Made by a program: the position numbers and the translations under genes. From IMG/VR virus record IMGVR_UViG_3300005915_000040, positions 1 through 41,780 of that record: a DNA stretch of 41,780 bases. One strand, written 5' to 3'. The stretch is from a virus. The notes below the pieces were generated by a model. It saw only the letters and a list, made by a program, of their open reading frames with translations. It did no database searches and had not been told where the DNA came from. Below are positions 2,615 through 41,780 of this stretch, piece by piece. Every line of letters starts with the position of its first letter. Position 1 is the first letter of the stretch.

Positions 2615-5119
2615 ATGTCTTTTGGTTTAGACTTAGGCAATTTATTAGTTCATCTTAAACTTAACGACACGCACTTCGTAAAAGGAATGCGGTCTATCGA
2701 ATCTAAGATGCAGGTGATGTCTAAAAATCTTACATCGATGGGCACTAAGATGTCTCTTGGTGTAACCTTGCCGATAACATTAGCATTAAGGAAAGCTGAA
2801 AAAGCGTTTAGTAGTTTTGATTTGAAGATGACTGAAAGTTTATCGATCATGGGTGACGTATCTACAGGGATGCAAAGCTCAATGAAAGAACTTGCCACTT
2901 CTTTATCACTGGAAAGTAATAAATCAGCAGATGATTTAGCTTCGTCTTACTTTTACTTAGCATCTGCTGGACTTAATGTTGAGCAGTCAATGGCTGCGTT
3001 GCCGAAAGTAATGTCTTTTGCCACAGCGGGAGCGTTTGATATGGCAACCGCTACAGATTTAGCGACTGATGCGCAAAGTGCTTTAGGTTTAAAAGCTGCT
3101 GATGCTACTAAAAATATGGAGAACATGATCAGAGTTACAGACACTCTTGTTGGTGCTAACACTTTAGCTAATGCTACTGTTGAGCAATTTAGTAAAGCAC
3201 TAACTAGCGATGCAGGCGCAGCGATGCGATCAATGAACATTCAGCTTGAAGAAGGCGTAGCTGTTTTAGCTGCGTACGCTGATCAAGGACTCAAAGCTGA
3301 AGAAGCTGGTAACATGTTTGGTCGGATGTTACGACTTATGACTAAAAGCTTTTTTGATAACCGTCAAGCTTGGAAATCTTTTGACATAGATGTGTTTGAT
3401 GAGTTTGGAAGTTATAGACCATTAGCTGATATTATTCAAGACTTAACTGATTCATTTGGTAAAATGTCGCCGGAAGCTCGTGCTGCGTCTTTAGCTATTT
3501 TAGGTTTTGAAGCGAGGTCACAAAAAGCTATTACGCCTCTTCTTGGAACTGCGGATGCGATTCGAGAATATCATAAAGAATTAAAAAGTATGGGTGGCAT
3601 CACTGAAGAAGTAGCTAATAAGCAACTTAAAGCGTTCATTAATCAGATGAAACTAACTAAACATCATGTTGATGCAGTGTTCAGGTTTATCGGTAAAAAG
3701 CTTGCTCCAAAGTTACTTGAAATTGGACAGATCGTTAGAGAAGTTTCTTTATGGTTTTTAAGCCTTGGTACTGCGACTCAACAATTACTGATAAATATGA
3801 CTTTAATAGTAGCTGCGACTGGACCTGTATTAATCGCAATGGGTTTTTTGATTAAAGCTTTGTTGTTCATGAAAGCTACGATCACAATTATAGTAGCATT
3901 ACAGCTTAAGCTTTTACCGATAATCGCGATTATTGCAGCGATTGGAGTAGGCGTTTATTCTTTAGCGACAGTGTGGCGAAATAACTTCGCAGGTATGCGA
4001 GATACTCTACAGAGTTTCTTAAATGTGATTAGTGAATTTTGGGTAAATGTAGTAGCTGTATTTAAAACTGGGTATGAATGGATTATTAAAAATTGGAACC
4101 ATGTTATTGGAGCATTCACAGCTAGCCTTGGTGAGTTAGCTAAAGACATTGCGGGCTTTTGGAACGCTACGAATAAACAAATGCAGCGTGGAATGCTAGG
4201 ACCCGGTAGTTCGTTTAATGAAGGTGATGCGAATACTTGGATGCAAGATTTTATAGAAGGTCGGGATGGTTTATCAGCTAATCTTGATCGTATGGTAAAA
4301 TTAGTGCCAAGTAAGTTCAAGGGTATGAAAAGAGAACTCGATCAAGTCGCTAAGTTCACAGGGCAGTCTTTTAAAGAGTTAATAGACTTAAATATTCAAC
4401 AAGCAAAAGCTGATCTAACTTCATTCATTACTTGGTTAAAAGAGATGTCATCAGGTCTTAGTGATACGGATCCTTCGCTTAAAGTAATCGAAAGTTTAAG
4501 AACGCAAGCTGAAGCTCTTAAAAATACAATTGAAGAGATCGCACCTAAAATCGAGCACTTACAAGAGGGCGTAGCTGAGAGTACTAAGTCCTTTTCAGCT
4601 TCAGCAATACAGAAGTTCCAAGAATTTCAGACAAGTATTTCTTCAATCACTGAAAACGGTTTGATGCAAATGGCACAGAACTGGGAGGGCTGGGCCGACA
4701 CAGTGAAGAACGTTCTTAAAGAAGTTTATTATGAAGCTTTAAGAATTGCACTAATCAGACCGCTAGCTCAAGGGCTTGGCGGTGCTTTTACTTCAGCTGC
4801 TAAAGGATTTATAAGTGCCATACCTGGAACTACCGCTGCAGTACCTGCTACAGCTCAAGCTGCTGACGGTGGTCGTGTAGAACGAACTGGTTGGGCTTTG
4901 ATTCATAAAGGTGAAGAGTTCTCTGGTGTAGGTAAGACGCTTGATCAAAAATCCGGTGGTAATGTAGCATTGACTTTACATTATGAGGGACAGCCCCTTG
5001 TAGAAAGAAAGCGTAGAGAATACATCGAAAACGATCAGCGATTTATGGAAGTGTGGTTAAGGCTCGCTGATACAAATATGTCTGTACAATCAAAAGTACG
5101 GCAGTTAGCGACCTCATAA
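2615..5119 (+). CDS. Tail tape measure protein
   Basis: An 834-residue protein, the longest helical gene of the tail module, directly after G/T with CGAAAGGA upstream. Residues about 60-300 follow the TP901-type tape-measure core (GDVSTGMQSSMKELAT, ANATVEQFSKAL, FDEFGSYRPLADIIQDLTDSF). Residues about 390-455 form a hydrophobic multi-helix stretch (VAATGPVLIAMGFLIKAL, IIAIIAAIGVGVYSLATV) that could insert in the host membrane during DNA ejection. Coiled-coil segments follow, and the C-terminus resembles lambda gpH ends (NWEGWADTVKNVLKEVYYEA, then a Gly-rich turn). At about 0.15 nm per residue it would set a tail near 125 nm, an inference. Stop overlaps the next start. Confidence 0.9.
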   Translation: MSFGLDLGNLLVHLKLNDTHFVKGMRSIESKMQVMSKNLTSMGTKMSLGVTLPITLALRKAEKAFSSFDLKMTESLSIMGDVSTGMQSSMKELATSLSLESNKSADDLASSYFYLASAGLNVEQSMAALPKVMSFATAGAFDMATATDLATDAQSALGLKAADATKNMENMIRVTDTLVGANTLANATVEQFSKALTSDAGAAMRSMNIQLEEGVAVLAAYADQGLKAEEAGNMFGRMLRLMTKSFFDNRQAWKSFDIDVFDEFGSYRPLADIIQDLTDSFGKMSPEARAASLAILGFEARSQKAITPLLGTADAIREYHKELKSMGGITEEVANKQLKAFINQMKLTKHHVDAVFRFIGKKLAPKLLEIGQIVREVSLWFLSLGTATQQLLINMTLIVAATGPVLIAMGFLIKALLFMKATITIIVALQLKLLPIIAIIAAIGVGVYSLATVWRNNFAGMRDTLQSFLNVISEFWVNVVAVFKTGYEWIIKNWNHVIGAFTASLGELAKDIAGFWNATNKQMQRGMLGPGSSFNEGDANTWMQDFIEGRDGLSANLDRMVKLVPSKFKGMKRELDQVAKFTGQSFKELIDLNIQQAKADLTSFITWLKEMSSGLSDTDPSLKVIESLRTQAEALKNTIEEIAPKIEHLQEGVAESTKSFSASAIQKFQEFQTSISSITENGLMQMAQNWEGWADTVKNVLKEVYYEALRIALIRPLAQGLGGAFTSAAKGFISAIPGTTAAVPATAQAADGGRVERTGWALIHKGEEFSGVGKTLDQKSGGNVALTLHYEGQPLVERKRREYIENDQRFMEVWLRLADTNMSVQSKVRQLATS

Positions 5120-32773: not shown

Positions 32774-32802
32774 TTGACCATTAACCGATAAGTGATTATA
32801 GT
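32774..32802 (+). promoter_or_regulatory. Strong sigma-70-like promoter of the small-gene region
   Basis: TTGACC at 32774-32779 and TATAGT at 32797-32802 are separated by exactly 17 bases, each five of six to consensus. Transcription would start near 32809 and run through the first ribozyme-like element (32975-33045) into the chain of small genes. Confidence 0.68.
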
Positions 32803-32974
32803 TTCATTAGATTGAAAACTGAATAAACAATGTAGGACGCCTGGACGGGCAAATTTTTGGAGCATCTTTGAAAAGTTAATAATATGGAGCTAGGACGAAG
32901 CTCGAAACAAAATTGGAAACTGGTGCTGATTCTGATCGACCAGAACACAAAATTAACGTCGGAGTAAAAATAAA

Positions 32975-33045
32975 GTCGAAACGCTGAAACATTGTTTCAG
33001 CGTCGTGATTGGGTTAACCGCCAACGCTTGAATAAGACAGGTTGA
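32975..33045 (+). ncRNA. Degenerate hammerhead-like RNA (element 0)
   Basis: It has the same order as the three elements downstream: GTC arm (32975-32977) then GAAA; stem III ACGCTGAAAC/GTTTCAGCGT (32981-33003); GUC triplet ending at 33004; a stem I of GTG-bulge-TTGG with CCAACGC; then TTGAATAA where CUGAUGA is expected, GAC to close stem II, and GGTTGA (33040-33045) pairing with loop I TTAACC (33014-33019). The core differs at essential positions, so cleavage is doubtful; it may be a decayed or repurposed copy. Confidence 0.5.
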
Positions 33046-33067
33046 ACTTTTCATAGGAGATTGAAAA

Positions 33068-33325
33068 ATGAAACTGACTCAAGAACAAATCAACGAAAGC
33101 ATCAACGACGCAACAGAGGCGCTGCTGAGCAACGGAAGAAAAAACACAGCTATAGTTTACCCTCAAGGATTTGTTGCAAACGCATACAGATATGCAGCGC
33201 CAGCGACACGAATTGTCGTCCAAAGAATTGGAATGGGAAAATTTGTATCACGTACCGAAGGGTACGACAGGAAACGATCATACGGAAAAGGTAGATATAT
33301 CACTCTTTGGAATCAGCTAAGATAG
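33068..33325 (+). CDS. Small basic protein of unknown function
   Basis: An 85-residue protein starting MKLTQEQINESINDATEAL, with TAGGAGA at 33054-33060 within a leader motif (CATAGGAGATTGAAA) that recurs before two later genes. A helical N-terminus is followed by a basic, Tyr/Arg-rich C-terminal half (YDRKRSYGKGRYITLW). No family recognised. It is the first coding gene after the promoter at 32774. Confidence 0.55.
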   Translation: MKLTQEQINESINDATEALLSNGRKNTAIVYPQGFVANAYRYAAPATRIVVQRIGMGKFVSRTEGYDRKRSYGKGRYITLWNQLR

Positions 33326-33367
33326 CTGATAGTTAAAGTACTTATAGAACGAATTAAGGAATCGAAA

Positions 33368-33469
33368 ATGAGACGCGGACTTGTAGAAATGGAACGTCGG
33401 GCGAATATCAAAATTCGCGTGAACCACTGTAATTTGTTTAAACGTTTAATGCTTAGTTTTGCATCGTAA
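33368..33469 (+). CDS. Tiny basic peptide, paralogue 1
   Basis: A 33-residue peptide, MRRGLVEMERRANIKIR..., ending FKRLMLSFAS, preceded by AAGGAA. Two more copies follow at 33828 and 34317, with the same plan: an Arg/Lys-rich start, RRAxIKIxxNxC, then an aromatic-basic end. Conservation of the protein while intervening DNA varies argues that it is translated. The combination of charge and amphipathic C-terminus could suit RNA, DNA or membrane binding; function unknown. Confidence 0.55.
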   Translation: MRRGLVEMERRANIKIRVNHCNLFKRLMLSFAS

Positions 33470-33489
33470 ATGGCCTCCTCCTTCTCAAA

Positions 33490-33515
33490 ACCCGCCGGTC
33501 AACGCGACGGAGGGT
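33490..33515 (+). promoter_or_regulatory. Leader hairpin with anti-Shine-Dalgarno tract (copy A)
   Basis: ACCC-G-CCG pairs with CGG-A-GGGT around GTCAACGCGA. Upstream, CCTCCTCCTT (33474-33483) is complementary to the downstream AGGAG (33541-33545) that serves the next gene, so this leader could mask the ribosome binding site. It resembles copy B, where the stem mismatch moves but base pairing is kept. Confidence 0.5.
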
Positions 33516-33553
33516 CATTTTACTTTGTTAACTTTTTCATAGGAGATTGAAAA

Positions 33554-33790
33554 ATGAAAACGATTGCAGAGAACATCGAAACACTTGAAAGATTGCTGAA
33601 AGAAGTAAATGATCACTGCATGTGTGCTTGGTTTGAATCAACGAGCGATGCTTACCAGGTTATTTATCCAATCGGGTATTTCCCGAACGGTGTACGATGC
33701 AATAAAGGAATGGGAAAAGCCAAAGCATTGAAACGGATTTTGTCAACTATGGAAAAGCACTGGCAAGAATCGTGCTGGTGGAATAATTAG
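33554..33790 (+). CDS. Small protein of unknown function
   Basis: A 78-residue protein starting MKTIAENIETLERLLKEVND, with AGGAG at 33541-33545. It has a helical N-terminus, then a C-x-C pair (HCMCAWF), an aromatic core (YQVIYPIGYFPNGVRC) and a Trp-rich end (KHWQESCWW). It shares the IYPIGYFPNG/IVYPQGFVANA turn with the protein at 33068 (both read as Y-P-x-G-[YF]-x-x-x), so the two may be distant relatives. No catalytic pattern. Confidence 0.55.
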   Translation: MKTIAENIETLERLLKEVNDHCMCAWFESTSDAYQVIYPIGYFPNGVRCNKGMGKAKALKRILSTMEKHWQESCWWNN

Positions 33791-33827
33791 AGTGAACATT
33801 AAAGCACTTATAGAACAGGAATCGAAA

Positions 33828-33977
33828 ATGAGACGCGGACTTAAATCAGGACTTAAATCAGGACTTAAATCAGGACTTAAATCAGGACTTGTAGAAATGG
33901 AACGTCGGGCGAATATCAAAATTCGTATGAATCATTGTAATTTGTTTAAACGTTTGATGCTTAGTTTTGCATCGTAA
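33828..33977 (+). CDS. Tiny basic peptide, paralogue 2, with LKSG repeat expansion
   Basis: A 49-residue version of the peptide at 33368. After MRRG, the 4-residue unit LKSG is repeated four times by exact 12-bp DNA repeats, before the common VEMERRANIKIR core. CAGGAA precedes the ATG at 33828; an upstream in-frame ATG at 33792 adds 12 residues but lacks a good ribosome site. The expansion adds four lysines, making the peptide more basic. Confidence 0.55.
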   Translation: MRRGLKSGLKSGLKSGLKSGLVEMERRANIKIRMNHCNLFKRLMLSFAS

Positions 33978-33997
33978 ATGGCCTCCTCCTTCTCAAA

Positions 33998-34023
33998 ACC
34001 CGACGGTCAACGCGACGGCGGGT
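33998..34023 (+). promoter_or_regulatory. Leader hairpin with anti-Shine-Dalgarno tract (copy B)
   Basis: ACCCG-A-CG pairs with CG-G-CGGGT around GTCAACGCGA. The pyrimidine tract CCTCCTCCTT upstream (about 33982-33991) again can pair with AGGAG at 34049-34053. Compared with copy A, base changes in the stem keep it paired. Confidence 0.5.
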
Positions 34024-34059
34024 CATTTTACTTTGTTAACTTTTTCATAGGAGATTGAA

Positions 34060-34272
34060 ATGTCTATAGTAGAATTAGATACAGTTGGTCCGAGTGATGA
34101 AGACTTTGTTAGGTTCTTAAAAAGCAATCATATTAAAATGACTGTGGTTGATCCGCACGGTCCTGGTGGTGGTTTTCTAGTTTGTTCTTATTACGCTGAA
34201 CGAGTGAAGCTTGAAGCATTAATCCTTGAGTGGTGGGATGATGATGGTTTGTTCAAGTATATTGTTGATTGA
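34060..34272 (+). CDS. Small acidic protein of unknown function
   Basis: A 70-residue protein starting MSIVELDTVGPSDEDF, with AGGAGATTG just upstream. It is acidic with a compact beta-alpha look (IKMTVVDPHGPGGGFLVCSYYAE, ALILEWWDDDGLF). No family recognised. It follows copy B of the duplicated leader. Confidence 0.5.
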   Translation: MSIVELDTVGPSDEDFVRFLKSNHIKMTVVDPHGPGGGFLVCSYYAERVKLEALILEWWDDDGLFKYIVD

Positions 34273-34316
34273 GCGTAGTTTAAAGTATTTTATAGAACGT
34301 AGTAAAAGGAGAAAAC

Positions 34317-34424
34317 ATGAGACGAAAGCAAGGTATCAACGAAATGTATCGTAGAGCTTCAATTAAAATTCAAATGAATCGCTGCAGTTGGTTGAAACGA
34401 GTTTTATTAAGCTTTACACTTTAA
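34317..34424 (+). CDS. Tiny basic peptide, paralogue 3
   Basis: A 35-residue peptide MRRKQGINEMYRRASIKIQ..., the diverged third copy of the peptides at 33368 and 33828 (RRAxIKIQMNRCSWLKR, ending LLSFTL). AAAAGGAG precedes the ATG. Its TAA stop (34422-34424) is also the first base of the stem II arm of hammerhead element 1, so coding and ribozyme abut. Confidence 0.55.
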   Translation: MRRKQGINEMYRRASIKIQMNRCSWLKRVLLSFTL

Positions 34425-34531
34425 TCGAAACGCCCAGCACTCTCCTTCACATGACGTGCTGATCCGCCTCACATTTCATGCTGCTGGGCGTCTTAATAGG
34501 ATGGCTACCTATTAACTGATGAGATAAGCCA
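34424..34531 (+). ncRNA. Type II hammerhead ribozyme-like RNA (element 1)
   Basis: Order in RNA: ATC, GAAA (34427-34430), stem III ACGCCCAGCA paired to TGCTGGGCGT (ending 34491), GUC with predicted cleavage after C34492, stem I TTAATAGG/CCTATTAA (34493-34500 and 34508-34515) closed by loop ATGGCTA, then the intact core CTGATGA (34516-34522) and GAT that pairs with the initial ATC to close short stem II. Loop I TGGCT (34502-34506) also pairs with AGCCA (34527-34531). All core residues of a natural hammerhead are present. An alternative CAGCAC/GTGCTG pairing inside stem III could compete. Confidence 0.85.
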
Positions 34532-34558
34532 CTAACATCTTTCTAAGGAGATAGTACT

Positions 34559-34996
34559 ATGGCAAAGAAATCGAAAAAAGTTGCATCAAAAAAGACTACG
34601 AAAAAAGTCACCGTTGATTTTCGGGATGCTAATTTGCGAGGCGCTGATTTGCGAGGTGCTGAAATGGTAGCAATTGGTGCTGAAATCAATGCTGAAGATG
34701 TTACAGTTAAAAGTGTTCTCAACGCTATATCCTGGCTTCAGTCGATTAATCATGATGAATTAACCGGTTCATTAGAAAAGTTAGGTCAGCCGATTAACGT
34801 TAGTATGAGTCGACTTGAGTCACTTGCTAAACGGATAAGTAAAGCAATCTGTTACGATGAAACAAAAGTAGCGCGTGAAGCGGTTAAAATAGAGCGTGAA
34901 GCTTTGAAGACAACTCGTCGGCGAAGAATCGTTAAAAAGAAAAGAGAACAACTAGCATCACTTCAAGCTCAAATCGATGAACTTGAAGCTGAGTAA
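34559..34996 (+). CDS. Basic protein with pentapeptide-like start and C-terminal coiled coil
   Basis: A 145-residue protein starting MAKKSKKVASKKTTKK, with AAGGAGA at 34545-34551. After the Lys-rich tail, FRDANLRGADLRGAEM contains two to three A(N/D)LRG units resembling pentapeptide repeats. The rest is helical, ending in a charged coiled coil (RRRIVKKKREQLASLQAQIDEL). Such proteins could be DNA-binding or scaffold-like, but I cannot assign a family. Its leader contains hammerhead element 1; a strong terminator follows. Confidence 0.55.
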   Translation: MAKKSKKVASKKTTKKVTVDFRDANLRGADLRGAEMVAIGAEINAEDVTVKSVLNAISWLQSINHDELTGSLEKLGQPINVSMSRLESLAKRISKAICYDETKVAREAVKIEREALKTTRRRRIVKKKREQLASLQAQIDELEAE

Positions 34997-35014
34997 GCGC
35001 ATCACCCCTCCGAA

Positions 35015-35043
35015 CCTCGAGGCTTCGGCCTCGGGGTTTTATT
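35015..35043 (+). terminator. Rho-independent terminator
   Basis: CCTCGAGGC at 35015-35023, tetraloop TTCG, and GCCTCGGGG at 35028-35036 form a 9-bp GC-rich stem (one G-U), followed by TTTTATTT. This is the cleanest terminator in the window. It ends the unit containing the gene at 34559. Confidence 0.85.
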
Positions 35044-35076
35044 TAGAGGTTAACTTTTATTCTTAAGGAGAATAAC

Positions 35077-35214
35077 ATGGGATCAGCAAAGAGCAAACCG
35101 AAATTCACTGAGAATTACTGTAAATCAACGAAACGTTGCAGCTGCGGTTACAAGATCCGTGGTATGAATCATGAAGCTGGAAAGCATCATAAAATGGGAA
35201 GAAACCACAAATAA
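35077..35214 (+). CDS. Small Cys/His-rich basic peptide
   Basis: A 45-residue peptide starting MGSAKSKPKFTENYC, with AAGGAG upstream. It has a CSC pair after a preceding Cys, and a very His- and Lys-rich second half (GMNHEAGKHHKMGRNHK). The C-x-C and His pattern might bind zinc, but no standard finger is seen. It lies between the terminator and hammerhead element 2, whose ATC arm begins seven bases after its stop. Confidence 0.5.
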   Translation: MGSAKSKPKFTENYCKSTKRCSCGYKIRGMNHEAGKHHKMGRNHK

Positions 35215-35220
35215 ATCGAA

Positions 35221-35318
35221 ATCGAAACGCTCATCACCAATCCTCTCCATTTGACAATCAATAACTAAGTGATGAGCGTCTTAACTGGACGGCTACCAGT
35301 TAACTGATGAGATAAGCC
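35221..35318 (+). ncRNA. Type II hammerhead ribozyme-like RNA (element 2)
   Basis: ATC then GAAA (35224-35227); stem III ACGCTCATCAC (35227-35237) paired to GTGATGAGCGT (35269-35279); GUC with predicted cleavage after C35280; stem I TTAACTGG/CCAGTTAA around loop ACGGCTA; core CTGATGA (35304-35310); GAT closes stem II. Loop I GGCT (35291-35294) pairs with AGCC (35315-35318). Compared with element 1, stems I and III have many changes that preserve pairing, so the structure is under selection. It precedes the PEP-CTERM-like gene. Confidence 0.87.
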
Positions 35319-35346
35319 ACTAATTCTATTTAAGGAGATTTGCATC

Positions 35347-36006
35347 ATGAAACGCACAACCAAAATGACGATGGTAGTATTAGTTCTTCTAGATTGTATG
35401 TTAGGGGTGAGTTCAGCCGCGGTGTATGACTTTTCTGGAACTGTCTTAGGAATTGAAGATGCTGGAGGGTTGCTTGATGGATCAGTAATAAACGGATCTA
35501 CATTTAGTGGTTCTTATTCATTTGATCCTGGAGCTCCAGCTATTTTAGCAACGCCCCCTTTTGATACTTCATTCGCGAAGTATTCAAGCCCTGGAAGTTC
35601 AGTCGTAGGAACTGTCGGTAACTATACGATGATTAATGGACCGACCGAAATCTATATCTGTAATGATTTTGGAAGCTTAGAGCTTGACGGGTACGGCCTA
35701 AGTTCAAGTGCCAATAACACTTTCGTTAACGGCATAAGCACATTTATAAAAGTTGATTTTGTTTGGGGCTTAGAAGATAAGGGCGGATCAGTTTTTGATT
35801 CGCTTGATCTTCCTTTGTCTCCGCCCGATTTAAATGAGTTTGAATCAAACTACTTTTTGATCAGATTAGAAAATTCATGTGTTGATACTGCTTGCATCTA
35901 CGGAACAATGAACGCACTTACTCCAGTGCCTACTCCTTCAGCTATGATTCTTTGTAGTGTTGGAGTTGGGATCGCCGGGTGGGTGAAAAAACGTAAAATG
36001 ATTTAA
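35347..36006 (+). CDS. Secreted protein with PEP-CTERM-like sorting signal
   Basis: A 219-residue protein, AAGGAG at 35332-35337 before the ATG. Residues 1-25 are a Sec signal (MKRTTK, hydrophobic core, VSSAA). The mature part, beta-rich and Gly/Ser-rich, has no recognised domain. Residues 194-219 have VPTPSA, a hydrophobic segment of about 13 residues, and the basic end KKRK, matching the tripartite PEP-CTERM plan read by exosortase. The host would process it and place it at its surface. The stop codon (36004-36006) is also the first base of hammerhead element 3. Surface alteration or superinfection exclusion is possible; function unknown. Confidence 0.72.
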   Translation: MKRTTKMTMVVLVLLDCMLGVSSAAVYDFSGTVLGIEDAGGLLDGSVINGSTFSGSYSFDPGAPAILATPPFDTSFAKYSSPGSSVVGTVGNYTMINGPTEIYICNDFGSLELDGYGLSSSANNTFVNGISTFIKVDFVWGLEDKGGSVFDSLDLPLSPPDLNEFESNYFLIRLENSCVDTACIYGTMNALTPVPTPSAMILCSVGVGIAGWVKKRKMI

Positions 36007-36066
36007 GTCGAAACACTCGAAAGAGTGTCTACCAGATTAGCATACTAGTACCGATGAGACTGCTAA
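36006..36066 (+). ncRNA. Compact hammerhead ribozyme-like RNA (element 3)
   Basis: AGTC then GAAA; stem III ACACTC-GAAA-GAGTGT (36013-36028) with a tetraloop; GUC with predicted cleavage after C36029; stem I TACCAG/CTAGTA with one C-A mismatch; core CCGATGA (36051-36057), one difference from CTGATGA; GACT closes stem II against AGTC. Loop I TTAGC (36037-36041) pairs with GCTAA (36062-36066). Both helical arms covary with elements 1 and 2. The core change may slow cleavage. Confidence 0.72.
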
Positions 36067-36100
36067 GAATTTGTAGTATTACTTTATAGGAGATAGAACA

Positions 36101-36205
36101 ATGTTTAAAAAGGTTAGTGAAGTTGTATTAATTGTTGGAGTAGCGTGCACAATATATGGTGTGATGTTAACCACTGTGATTGTAGAATTAATTTTGAGGA
36201 GTTAG
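36101..36205 (+). CDS. Single-span membrane micropeptide
   Basis: A 34-residue peptide MFKKVSEVVLIVGVACTIY..., with TAGGAGA upstream. After a short basic start it has an uninterrupted hydrophobic helix of about 20 residues (VVLIVGVACTIYGVMLTTV) and a short end ELILRS. It is a likely inner-membrane peptide. A second tiny hydrophobic ORF follows. Roles such as lysis timing or toxin-type membrane effects are possible but not shown. Confidence 0.5.
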   Translation: MFKKVSEVVLIVGVACTIYGVMLTTVIVELILRS

Positions 36206-36282: not shown

Positions 36283-36606
36283 ATGGCAAAAAAAGAGTTT
36301 AAGAAATCGAAAGCATTATATGCTGTTTCAATGCCTGAAGATTTTAATTTTGATGAGCATGCCGCGTTGAATCGTGAAGATTTTGAAAATGATGGTTTGT
36401 TCTTACAACATAAAGCGAAGCAATACAGATACCGTGCTTTAATGTTAGATGAAAGAGCAGATTTCTTTTTTAAATACGGTTCGAAAGCAACTGTTCGCAA
36501 AGCCGCGAAGCTAGTAGCTTTACTCGAAAAAATGAAAGCTCTTAAAAAGGAGCTTGTTCAGAAAGGAGTGCCTATTGACGGGATCATAGAGGGTAGCACA
36601 AAGTAG
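36283..36606 (+). CDS. Conserved small phage protein, MPEDF family, copy 1
   Basis: A 107-residue protein with AAGGGG upstream. It starts MAKKEFKKSKALYAV and has MPEDFNFDEHAALNREDF, then a helical, charged region (LQHKAKQYRYRALMLDERADFF), and a C-terminal LVALLEKMKALKKELVQKGVPID. The next gene repeats this plan, so the two are paralogues. The family has no function known to me; the helical middle looks like a coiled-coil pair. Confidence 0.62.
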   Translation: MAKKEFKKSKALYAVSMPEDFNFDEHAALNREDFENDGLFLQHKAKQYRYRALMLDERADFFFKYGSKATVRKAAKLVALLEKMKALKKELVQKGVPIDGIIEGSTK

Positions 36607-36673: not shown

Positions 36674-37096
36674 ATGGCAAAAGCAAAAGTAAAAGCACCG
36701 CAGCAAACCCAGAAAAAAGGAATCGTTAACGTTAAGCCCACACCTAAGAAAGTTCGTGAACAGAAGCCTGAATTCGAAGTACCTGAAGATTTGTTCACAG
36801 AAGCAATGCCAGAAGATTTCGAATTCGGTAAGTATAAACCACTTCGGAGATCTGACTTTGCACAGATATGGATGTACATCGAACATCGCGCTTTAGAGGC
36901 TGAGTTTAAAGCTGAGTTGCTTCATGCTGAAGCAGCACGCGTTAAGAAGCTTGGTTCTTCTGCTGACCGTAACAAGGCCAAACGTTATCTCAAGATGAGC
37001 GAGAAAATGGAAGAGCTGCGTAAACAACTTGAAGAAGCTGGTTTTGATACTGATACACTTTTGGAAGACGAAAAAGAAGAGGAAGATGGCAGCTAA
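36674..37096 (+). CDS. Conserved small phage protein, MPEDF family, copy 2
   Basis: A 140-residue paralogue of the previous gene. It has a longer, basic Lys/Pro/Gln-rich start (MAKAKVKAPQQTQKK), then AMPEDFEFGKYKPLRRSDF, a helical region (YIEHRALEAEFKAELLHAEA) and an acidic tail (DTLLEDEKEEEDGS). A moderately good AAAGGATCC precedes the ATG. The charge of the two ends differs from copy 1, suggesting divergence in partner binding. Confidence 0.62.
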   Translation: MAKAKVKAPQQTQKKGIVNVKPTPKKVREQKPEFEVPEDLFTEAMPEDFEFGKYKPLRRSDFAQIWMYIEHRALEAEFKAELLHAEAARVKKLGSSADRNKAKRYLKMSEKMEELRKQLEEAGFDTDTLLEDEKEEEDGS

Positions 37097-41096: not shown

Positions 41097-41478
41097 AAGT
41101 GCATACACTCGATGGTTCTGTGAAAGAGTCGAAAAGATGGGCTCCAAAGTTGTTGCGTTTGTTGGGAACTCTTACCAAAAATCTGGGATACCCGATAGGT
41201 ACATTTCGCATCCTATATTTAGAGGATGGATAGAGTTCAAAAGACATAATGTGCAGTGTAAAACGAACCAACGAATCTTTATTAAGGATGCATTACGTGT
41301 GGGAGATACCGCGTTAGTTGTACGATTATTGAAAGATTATCATACGACTGTTGAAGATACTCATCAAACAGTGTATGCGTATCTTGATTTAAAACCTGTA
41401 ATTTTGATGTCTAAAACAGAAGCTGGAAGAGAACTGCTAGGGTTCTTAGCTAACGGTTGGAGAGCAATGCAACACTAA
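41080..41478 (+). CDS. VRR-NUC-like endonuclease
   Basis: A 132-residue protein starting at GTG 41080 with GGAGG at 41070-41074; upstream in-frame ATG codons lack a ribosome site. GNSYQKSGIPDRYISH and GWIEFKRHN provide the PD-(D/E)xK layout (Asp39, Glu52, Lys54) characteristic of VRR-NUC/Holliday-junction-type nucleases, and QRIFIKDALRVGDTALVV is the following helix-strand. Phage VRR-NUCs act on branched DNA or recombination intermediates. Unlike nearly all others in the window this gene uses GTG. Confidence 0.72.
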   Translation: MNFANESAYTRWFCERVEKMGSKVVAFVGNSYQKSGIPDRYISHPIFRGWIEFKRHNVQCKTNQRIFIKDALRVGDTALVVRLLKDYHTTVEDTHQTVYAYLDLKPVILMSKTEAGRELLGFLANGWRAMQH

Positions 41479-41480
41479 CT

Positions 41481-41667
41481 AAACTAGTGAGCAAATAATA
41501 TTAACTATAAAATTTTATTGATTAGCAAATGTATGATACACCGAAGGTAGATCTTTTATAAGTTAATAACAAGGTATTTGGTTGAATCCTCTTTCTAACC
41601 TCGGTTCGGCGCAACGCTGACTGAACCTCTGTGAAGTAGTCGCAATACTTCTGTTGCTCACTAGTTT
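41481..41667 (+). ncRNA. Structured RNA candidate closed by a 14-bp stem
   Basis: AAACTAGTGAGCAA (41481-41494) is perfectly complementary to TTGCTCACTAGTTT (41654-41667), enclosing about 159 bases. Inside are GGTTC...GAACC around a GCG-CAA-CGC hairpin (about 41605-41631) and GAAGTA...TACTTC (about 41634-41652), so a multi-branched RNA is likely. The next gene's AAGGAG follows 10 bases after the closing stem. It could be a riboswitch-like leader or another self-processing element; no known class is matched. This accounts for the 41479-41691 gap. Confidence 0.6.
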
Positions 41668-41691
41668 ATAATTTTAAGGAGAAATAGAACA

Positions 41692-41780
41692 ATGTATATA
41701 TACGGAAAAAAAGATGATAAGAGATTTGTGATCGGCATTTCTGCTAAAGAAAATATTAAAGATGCAATTTGTGATTTGAG
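41692..41780 (+). CDS. Unknown protein, 5' part only
   Basis: An ORF starting MYIYGKKDDKRFVIGISAKE, with AAGGAGAAA at 41676-41684. It runs off the window end, so length and family cannot be judged. It is the gene controlled by the structured leader at 41481-41667. Confidence 0.5.
   Translation, partial: MYIYGKKDDKRFVIGISAKENIKDAICDL

Follow-up and report, generated by a model that had tools for sequence, protein, structure and literature searches.

Clustered hammerhead ribozymes have been described flanking prophage genes, with the proposal that they cut the transcript into single-gene mRNAs (Perreault et al., 2011; PMC3088659). The text of that study gives as examples a triple array around ardA in Agrobacterium tumefaciens and tandem sets in Clostridium scindens and Azorhizobium caulinodans, and it reports that clustered hammerheads in polycistronic RNA cleave in vitro and that one triple array cleaves in Escherichia coli (PMC3088659). 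It also describes HHphage of haloviruses HF1 and HF2, a hammerhead with a variant core that lies immediately ahead of a phage start codon, for which a 5′ end was mapped within three nucleotides (nt) of the cleavage site (PMC3088659). A 2017 review treated the role of hammerheads as open and noted that they flank small unknown open reading frames (ORFs) in phages (PMC6155905). Here we analyze the 41,780 nt of IMG/VR virus record IMGVR_UViG_3300005915_000040 (positions 1 to 41,780; “the window”), which carries four type II hammerhead elements, E1 to E4. The kind of element and the idea of its use have been known since 2011; by comparative sequence analysis the set reported here is real and conserved, and its cleavage is predicted. 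Probably, these phages themselves divide their long transcripts into pieces of one gene each.

The window resembles the 2011 clusters in that one transcript has several same-strand hammerheads, which flank single genes or short gene blocks of a phage genome. It and related loci differ in having same-strand arrays of up to eight type II hammerheads, a stop codon that abuts stem II and a next start that follows at a set distance, features absent from the text of the 2011 paper. Array size, the fixed stop-ribozyme-start geometry with its controls, and the mixture of intact with variant cores inside an array appear to be additions to that text. The arrays also appear larger and more regular than those described in the text of the literature.

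Other self-cleaving RNAs are less similar. HHphage shares a variant core and a position upstream of a phage start codon, but it is single copy, has a different core insertion and belongs to an archaeal high-salt host. Retrozymes and viroid-like circular RNAs share hammerhead self-cleavage (predicted here) and the presence of several copies, whereas the copies here lie between protein genes of a DNA phage, with no repeat-unit element and no clear ligase enrichment. The theta ribozymes of gut phages are likewise phage self-cleaving ribozymes for RNA processing (PMC10879173). However, they have a hepatitis delta virus-like fold and occur at tRNA 3′ ends, and there is no tRNA in the window.

Four type II hammerheads on one strand

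E1 (32974-33053), E2 (34423-34540), E3 (35220-35328) and E4 (36006-36075) all lie on the + strand and have the same order of parts: a stem II strand, GAAA, the stem III hairpin, UC, the stem I hairpin, a CUGAUGA-like core and the second stem II strand. Three stems surround the core in each case, with stem II open and stems I and III closed, as in type II hammerheads (RF02276, clan CL00010). We searched the window and 2,959 Markov-shuffled windows with a type II descriptor. Two perfect-core matches were found in the window (GAAA at 34427 and 35224), compared with 0.022 per shuffled window. A third match has one core mismatch (GAAA at 36010); at up to one mismatch the shuffles give 0.45 per window. 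The descriptor had no match on the − strand of the window.

Using relatives collected via the DNA polymerase gene, we aligned 24 ribozymes from viral contigs with E4 (alignment A2) and derived a covariance model, R1 (n = 25), leaving out E1 to E3. On both strands of the 41,780-base window R1 has exactly four matches, all on the + strand, and nothing else. Scores were 54.4 bits for E4 (E-value 9.5e-12; a training member), 41.1 bits for E2 (1.9e-8), 38.1 bits for E3 (1.1e-7) and 22.7 bits for E1 (7e-4), the last three lying outside the training set. The E-values are rough, given a shortened calibration, whereas the exclusivity of the four matches is a direct result. This exclusivity and the descriptor counts against shuffles confirm, as far as sequence can, that the four elements are type II hammerheads beyond chance, at about the places where an earlier note on this DNA, made from the sequence alone, had put them.

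No element reaches the gathering level of Rfam 15, which had no match in the window at that level. The best Rfam match is E4 to Hammerhead_II with 28.2 bits (E-value 0.021 in 9.5 kb and 2.5e-4 in 111 nt), below the RF02276 gathering threshold of 37 bits, which is a detection cut-off and not a chemical criterion. Judged by Rfam alone, the check that the earlier note had proposed would have counted as a refutation of E1 and E2, for neither of which it gave a significant match, but the lineage model detects both; the long stem III arm of E2 and the odd core of E1 are the probable reasons for the misses. An Rfam search of two relatives likewise had no match at E ≤ 1, although one of them, L002, has two perfect-core copies, and we therefore attribute the null result in the relatives to insensitivity and not to absence.

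E2 and E3 match the invariant core consensus (C3 U4 G5 A6 N7 G8 A9 ... G12 A13 A14 ... A15.1-U16.1 H17). In E2, the stop codon TAA of the preceding gene (34422-34424) overlaps the stem II strand ATC (34424-34426), which is followed by GAAA (34427-34430), a predicted cleavage site at 34492/34493, stem I (34493-34515) and the core CTGATGA (34516-34522). In E3, the upstream stop TAA is at 35212-35214, GAAA at 35224-35227, the predicted cleavage site at 35280/35281, stem I at 35281-35303 and the core CTGATGA at 35304-35310. Both have the GAAA/CUGAUGA core of the class and depart from it in their very long stem III arms; the UH cleavage site of the class is shared by the set as a whole.

The other two cores are variant. 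E1 pairs GTC (32975-32977) with GAC (33036-33038) in stem II and continues with GAAA (32978-32981), stem III (32981-33003), a predicted cleavage site at 33004/33005 and stem I (33005-33027). Its core TTGAATAA (33028-33035) reads UUGA-A-UAA (U3 U4 G5 A6 A6a U7 A8 A9), in which a U3-A8 pair replaces C3-G8 and an extra A (A6a) follows A6. E4 has the U4C change in its core, CCGAUGA (CCGATGA at 36051-36057), with predicted cleavage at 36029/36030. The earlier note had held E1 and E2 to be the elements with intact cores; E1 loses that place to E3. All three changes are natural according to the text of PMC3088659: the U3-A8 swap is active, the A6a insertion has low activity, and U4C is considerably slower in vitro yet sufficient for viroid infectivity. 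Because of these reported activities, E1 and E4 are probably slow ribozymes, or E1 is decaying.

The stems are supported by covariation. Among 32 distinct ribozymes, 90.6% of cells are paired and 12 of 13 pairs have changed on both sides. The covariation score is 0.729, compared with 0.19 for shuffled and 0.07-0.115 for slid alignments, and is somewhat favored in that the underlying alignment (A3) was fitted to the model. E2 and E3 are related to each other, with nearly identical core, loop I and tail; their stems differ at four pairs (two in stem III, two in stem I), all compensated.

A pseudoknot between loop I and the tail, known for the type II class (PMC3088659, in the text), is present in all four elements: TTAACC/GGTTGA in E1, TGGCT/AGCCA in E2, GGCT/AGCC in E3 and TTAGCA/TGCTAA in E4. 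Across 31 ribozymes the matched loop-tail pairing score is 310, compared with 186 ± 20 when loops and tails are re-paired, and none of 2000 shuffles was as good. A pairing between the start codon and the tail was also seen in E2 but was dropped, as it is absent from E3.

Arrays in related phages and other viruses

A Megablast search against phages had no match, and the ligase protein as query had none in viral contigs. Among the relatives, 28 records were searched over their whole length, and 13 of them have ribozyme matches. Arrays comprise six ribozymes in the record of L030 (reaching within 176 nt of the contig end), five in L005, four in L008 and three each in L006, L026 and L032. Within each of the relative records all matches are on the same strand, and nearly all are clustered. 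The first ribozyme past the polymerase gene has a perfect core in L002, L005 and L030 (61-67% polymerase identity). Since several relatives, L003 and L011 among them, are without ribozyme matches in the whole-record search, the arrays appear to come and go. The five ribozymes of L005 (12347-14067) alternate between two loop/tail subtypes in the order A-B-A-B-A, which might limit cross-folding or recombination of neighbors.

Separately from this lineage sample, an exact pattern scan of viral contigs found at least 120 stretches, and 80 loci were taken; the survey counts below are among these listed matches. R1 recovered at least 139 ribozymes in 75 of the 80 loci, with up to eight per locus (L076 and L109), and no listed locus has ribozymes on both strands. 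Rfam Hammerhead_II reaches its gathering score for 25 copies in the nine array loci searched. As a control, the raw pattern was scanned in 257 Gb of cellular genome contigs, where we estimated several hundred chance matches; R1 matched only a minority of these loci. Because chance matches are numerous and the model keeps a minority, we drew no evidence from the raw pattern in cellular genomes. One such locus, L256 (426-2151), comes from an Acidimicrobiaceae metagenome bin, carries four consecutive type II hammerheads and is possibly a prophage.

The position of the ribozymes between genes is regular. A start codon equipped with a Shine-Dalgarno (SD) sequence occurs 20-50 nt past the core in 113 of 139 ribozymes, compared with 1 of 139 on the opposite strand and 100 of 1390 random same-strand positions. 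Within 140 nt past the core the corresponding counts are 134 of 139, 12 of 139 and 443 of 1390. The predicted cut lies a median of 57 nt ahead of the start, and most of the first 6 nt of the downstream product are paired in stem I. For survey and lineage together (n = 145), the upstream stop codon ends at −2 to +1 of the first base of the ribozyme in 81 cases, at −3 to −15 in none, and deeper inside the ribozyme in six. Gaps between successive ribozymes in the same combined set contain exactly one ORF in 64 of 84 cases, with a median coding fraction of 0.89.

Genes and other features of the locus

The window represents a tailed phage, with genes for tape measure, tail fiber J, helicase, primase, DNA polymerase and 5′-3′ exonuclease and a DNA-ligase-like gene. 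The ribozymes lie among small, mostly unknown genes between the DNA polymerase and the exonuclease. E1 is at the end of an untranslated leader, behind a sigma70-like promoter (TTGACC-17-TATAGT, 32774-32802, + strand; 10/12 consensus). Promoter-like sites are no commoner in the region than in shuffles; by eye, promoter-like sequences are also present at the corresponding place in L002, L005 and L030. The stop triplet adjoining E1 lies in this leader and belongs to no gene. The earlier note had E1, E2 and E3 begin at or within 7 bases of a stop codon; in E2 and E3 this is the stop of a gene or ORF, in E1 it is not. E4, too, starts on a stop codon, its first base overlapping the TAA at 36004-36006.

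A motif like TTTGAAAAGTTAATAATATGG recurs shortly past the promoter-like sequence, with two copies in the leader of the window (32812 and 32865), another at 41551 and others in the leaders of L002, L005 and L030. We take it to resemble the boxA antitermination signal of rRNA leaders; a literature search for the exact boxA-like string found no paper.

The genes and ORFs that flank the ribozymes, and the hairpin at 35008-35045, are on the + strand. Downstream of E1, a gene for 85 amino acids (aa) (33068-33325), with no family match, starts 63 nt past the predicted cut. The stop of a 35-aa basic microprotein gene (34317-34424) overlaps E2. This microprotein family of about 35 aa has three copies in the window (33368-33469, 33828-33977 and 34317-34424) and one in L002 (13036-13135). 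The second window copy has a 12-bp tandem repeat, and a 176-nt stretch is duplicated at 96% identity. Between E2 and E3 are a 145-aa gene (34559-34996), which has a short pentapeptide-like stretch and is related to a ribozyme-flanked gene in L016, a strong terminator-like hairpin with a T-run (35008-35045; z −3.76) and a 45-aa ORF directly upstream of E3 (35077-35214). With two genes and a hairpin in this interval, and with several genes and hairpins separating E1 from E2, the units are less tidy than in the relatives.

The 219-aa gene between E3 and E4 (35347-36006) is the only single-gene unit of the window's array. Its product has a signal-like N-terminus and a PEP-CTERM-like C-terminus (VPTPSA, a membrane helix and KKRK), below the NCBIfam cut-off. 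This protein and the array gene family had no matches as queries against phages, and this family diverges too much in its alignment for contigs to be scanned with it. A 34-aa ORF (36101-36205) lies downstream of E4. Lysine-rich unknown proteins of one family are encoded at 36283-36606 and 36674-37096 and in L005, L026 and L030, often as tandem paralogues; their genes are ribozyme-flanked in the relatives and not in the window. Near the end of the window, a long structured non-coding RNA between two genes (41478-41693; z −3.58) has several hairpins enclosed by a long closing helix and no Rfam match.

Proposed cutting of the phage transcript and alternative explanations

Fold, covariation, position, conservation and orientation were computed directly, whereas we infer cleavage, the chemistry of the ends, stabilization and uncoupling. 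We consider it likely that these hammerheads act in cis from the intergenic gaps and cut the phage transcript into mRNAs of one or a few genes. The earlier note had proposed such cutting of a polycistronic mRNA, and the covariation, the pseudoknot, the conservation in relatives and the recurrent stop-ribozyme-start layout argue for it. The transcription unit with the ribozymes would follow the DNA polymerase gene, and each element would fold as RNA polymerase passes. Once formed by stems I to III and the loop I-tail pseudoknot, each ribozyme would cut once, 5′ of stem I, and leave mRNAs of one gene or a few in place of the long transcript. The message upstream of a cut would end shortly past its stop codon in the stem III hairpin with a 2′,3′-cyclic phosphate, and the one downstream would start with a 5′-OH directly on the stem I hairpin, its start codon following after about 60 nt. 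Such geometry is what one would expect of a device for making separate messages, with hairpins at the new ends, out of one transcript. E2 and E3 are predicted to cut fast and E1 and E4 slowly. Most likely, the stability and dosage of neighboring small genes would be uncoupled while both new ends are protected; that terminal hairpins may stabilize the messages is suggested by general knowledge of bacterial mRNA decay.

Several observations weigh against this reading. The variant cores of E1 and E4 have reported low (A6a) or much decreased (U4C) activity, and minimum-energy folding of these two elements alone prefers competing pairings. E1 and E2 are several genes and hairpins apart, which would leave some genes unseparated, and the relatives without ribozymes imply that the arrays are dispensable. 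Predicted SD exposure is almost unaffected by cutting (0.58 against 0.54); because it barely changes, cutting is unlikely to work by freeing the ribosome site.

Other explanations share parts of this evidence. The elements could be inactive hairpins or chance look-alikes, such as terminators or decayed ribozymes, as the Rfam misses for E1 to E3 and the altered cores of E1 and E4 might suggest, but the perfect cores and compensatory changes of E2 and E3, the model and shuffle results and the perfect-core ribozymes conserved at the position of E1 in relatives make this extremely improbable. The stop codon peak bears on another idea, in which the GAAA strand would lie under a terminating ribosome, with the core blocked until upstream translation pauses or ends, so that the ribozyme would sense translation. 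The size of the ribosome footprint is well established and counts in its favor, as do the peak at −2 to +1, to which E2 (−2) and E4 (−1) conform, and the empty interval at −3 to −15. However, the peak is also expected from a ribozyme that fills the smallest gap in a compact genome, and no gene stop adjoins E1 or a minority of the other ribozymes; we regard such timing as unlikely. Similarly doubtful is a more far-reaching version of transcript cutting that phages would use widely: every small gene of a transcription unit would have a hammerhead of its own at its border, positioned for the terminating ribosome to cover the catalytic GAAA strand, release of each single-gene mRNA would be timed by translation of the preceding gene, and mixed fast and slow cores would set the dosage of each gene. 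Cleavage might instead destabilize messages and lower the expression of array genes, as it strips the primary 5′ end and breaks coupling, and slow variant cores would tune dosage. Hairpins at both new ends and a standard SD leader kept 20-50 nt past the core fit preserved expression better, and we find destabilization decidedly unlikely.

The products themselves could also have a function. RtcB joins exactly the ends that hammerheads leave, and pairs of ribozymes might excise one-gene RNAs that are then circularized (5′-OH to 2′,3′-cyclic phosphate) into circular phage mRNAs. The predicted ends are the right substrates, E2 and E3 have compatible stem II strands, and one array phage, G038 (L117), encodes RtcB about 1.2 kb downstream of its array on the same strand (contig 3051-4139, −). 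Yet RtcB occurs in 1 of 80 ribozyme-bearing or sampled records compared with 636 of 50,697 phages, which is no clear enrichment, and RNA_ligase had no matches in 30 records; a host ligase might still join the ends. Circular or spliced products were sought and not found according to the text of PMC3088659, and we judge circularization highly improbable here. It is very unlikely, too, that E1 serves to free the 5′ leader of about 190 nt as a small RNA acting in trans. The window, L002, L005 and L030 do have a promoter-like site and a TTGAAAAnTnAATAATATG-like motif ahead of their first ribozyme, but the leaders align poorly beyond the motif, the core of E1 is compromised and the window leader folds no better than shuffles (z −0.53).

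For the cutting of the transcript into one-gene or few-gene mRNAs, the array offers clean targets: predicted 5′-OH ends, a single transcript that combines intact with variant cores, and relatives that either have or lack ribozymes. Hammerhead arrays would be ready-made parts for obtaining independent single-gene messages from one transcript. For the phages that carry them, arrays of up to eight ribozymes that keep a fixed stop-ribozyme-start geometry can hardly be accounted for other than as devices for mRNA processing.

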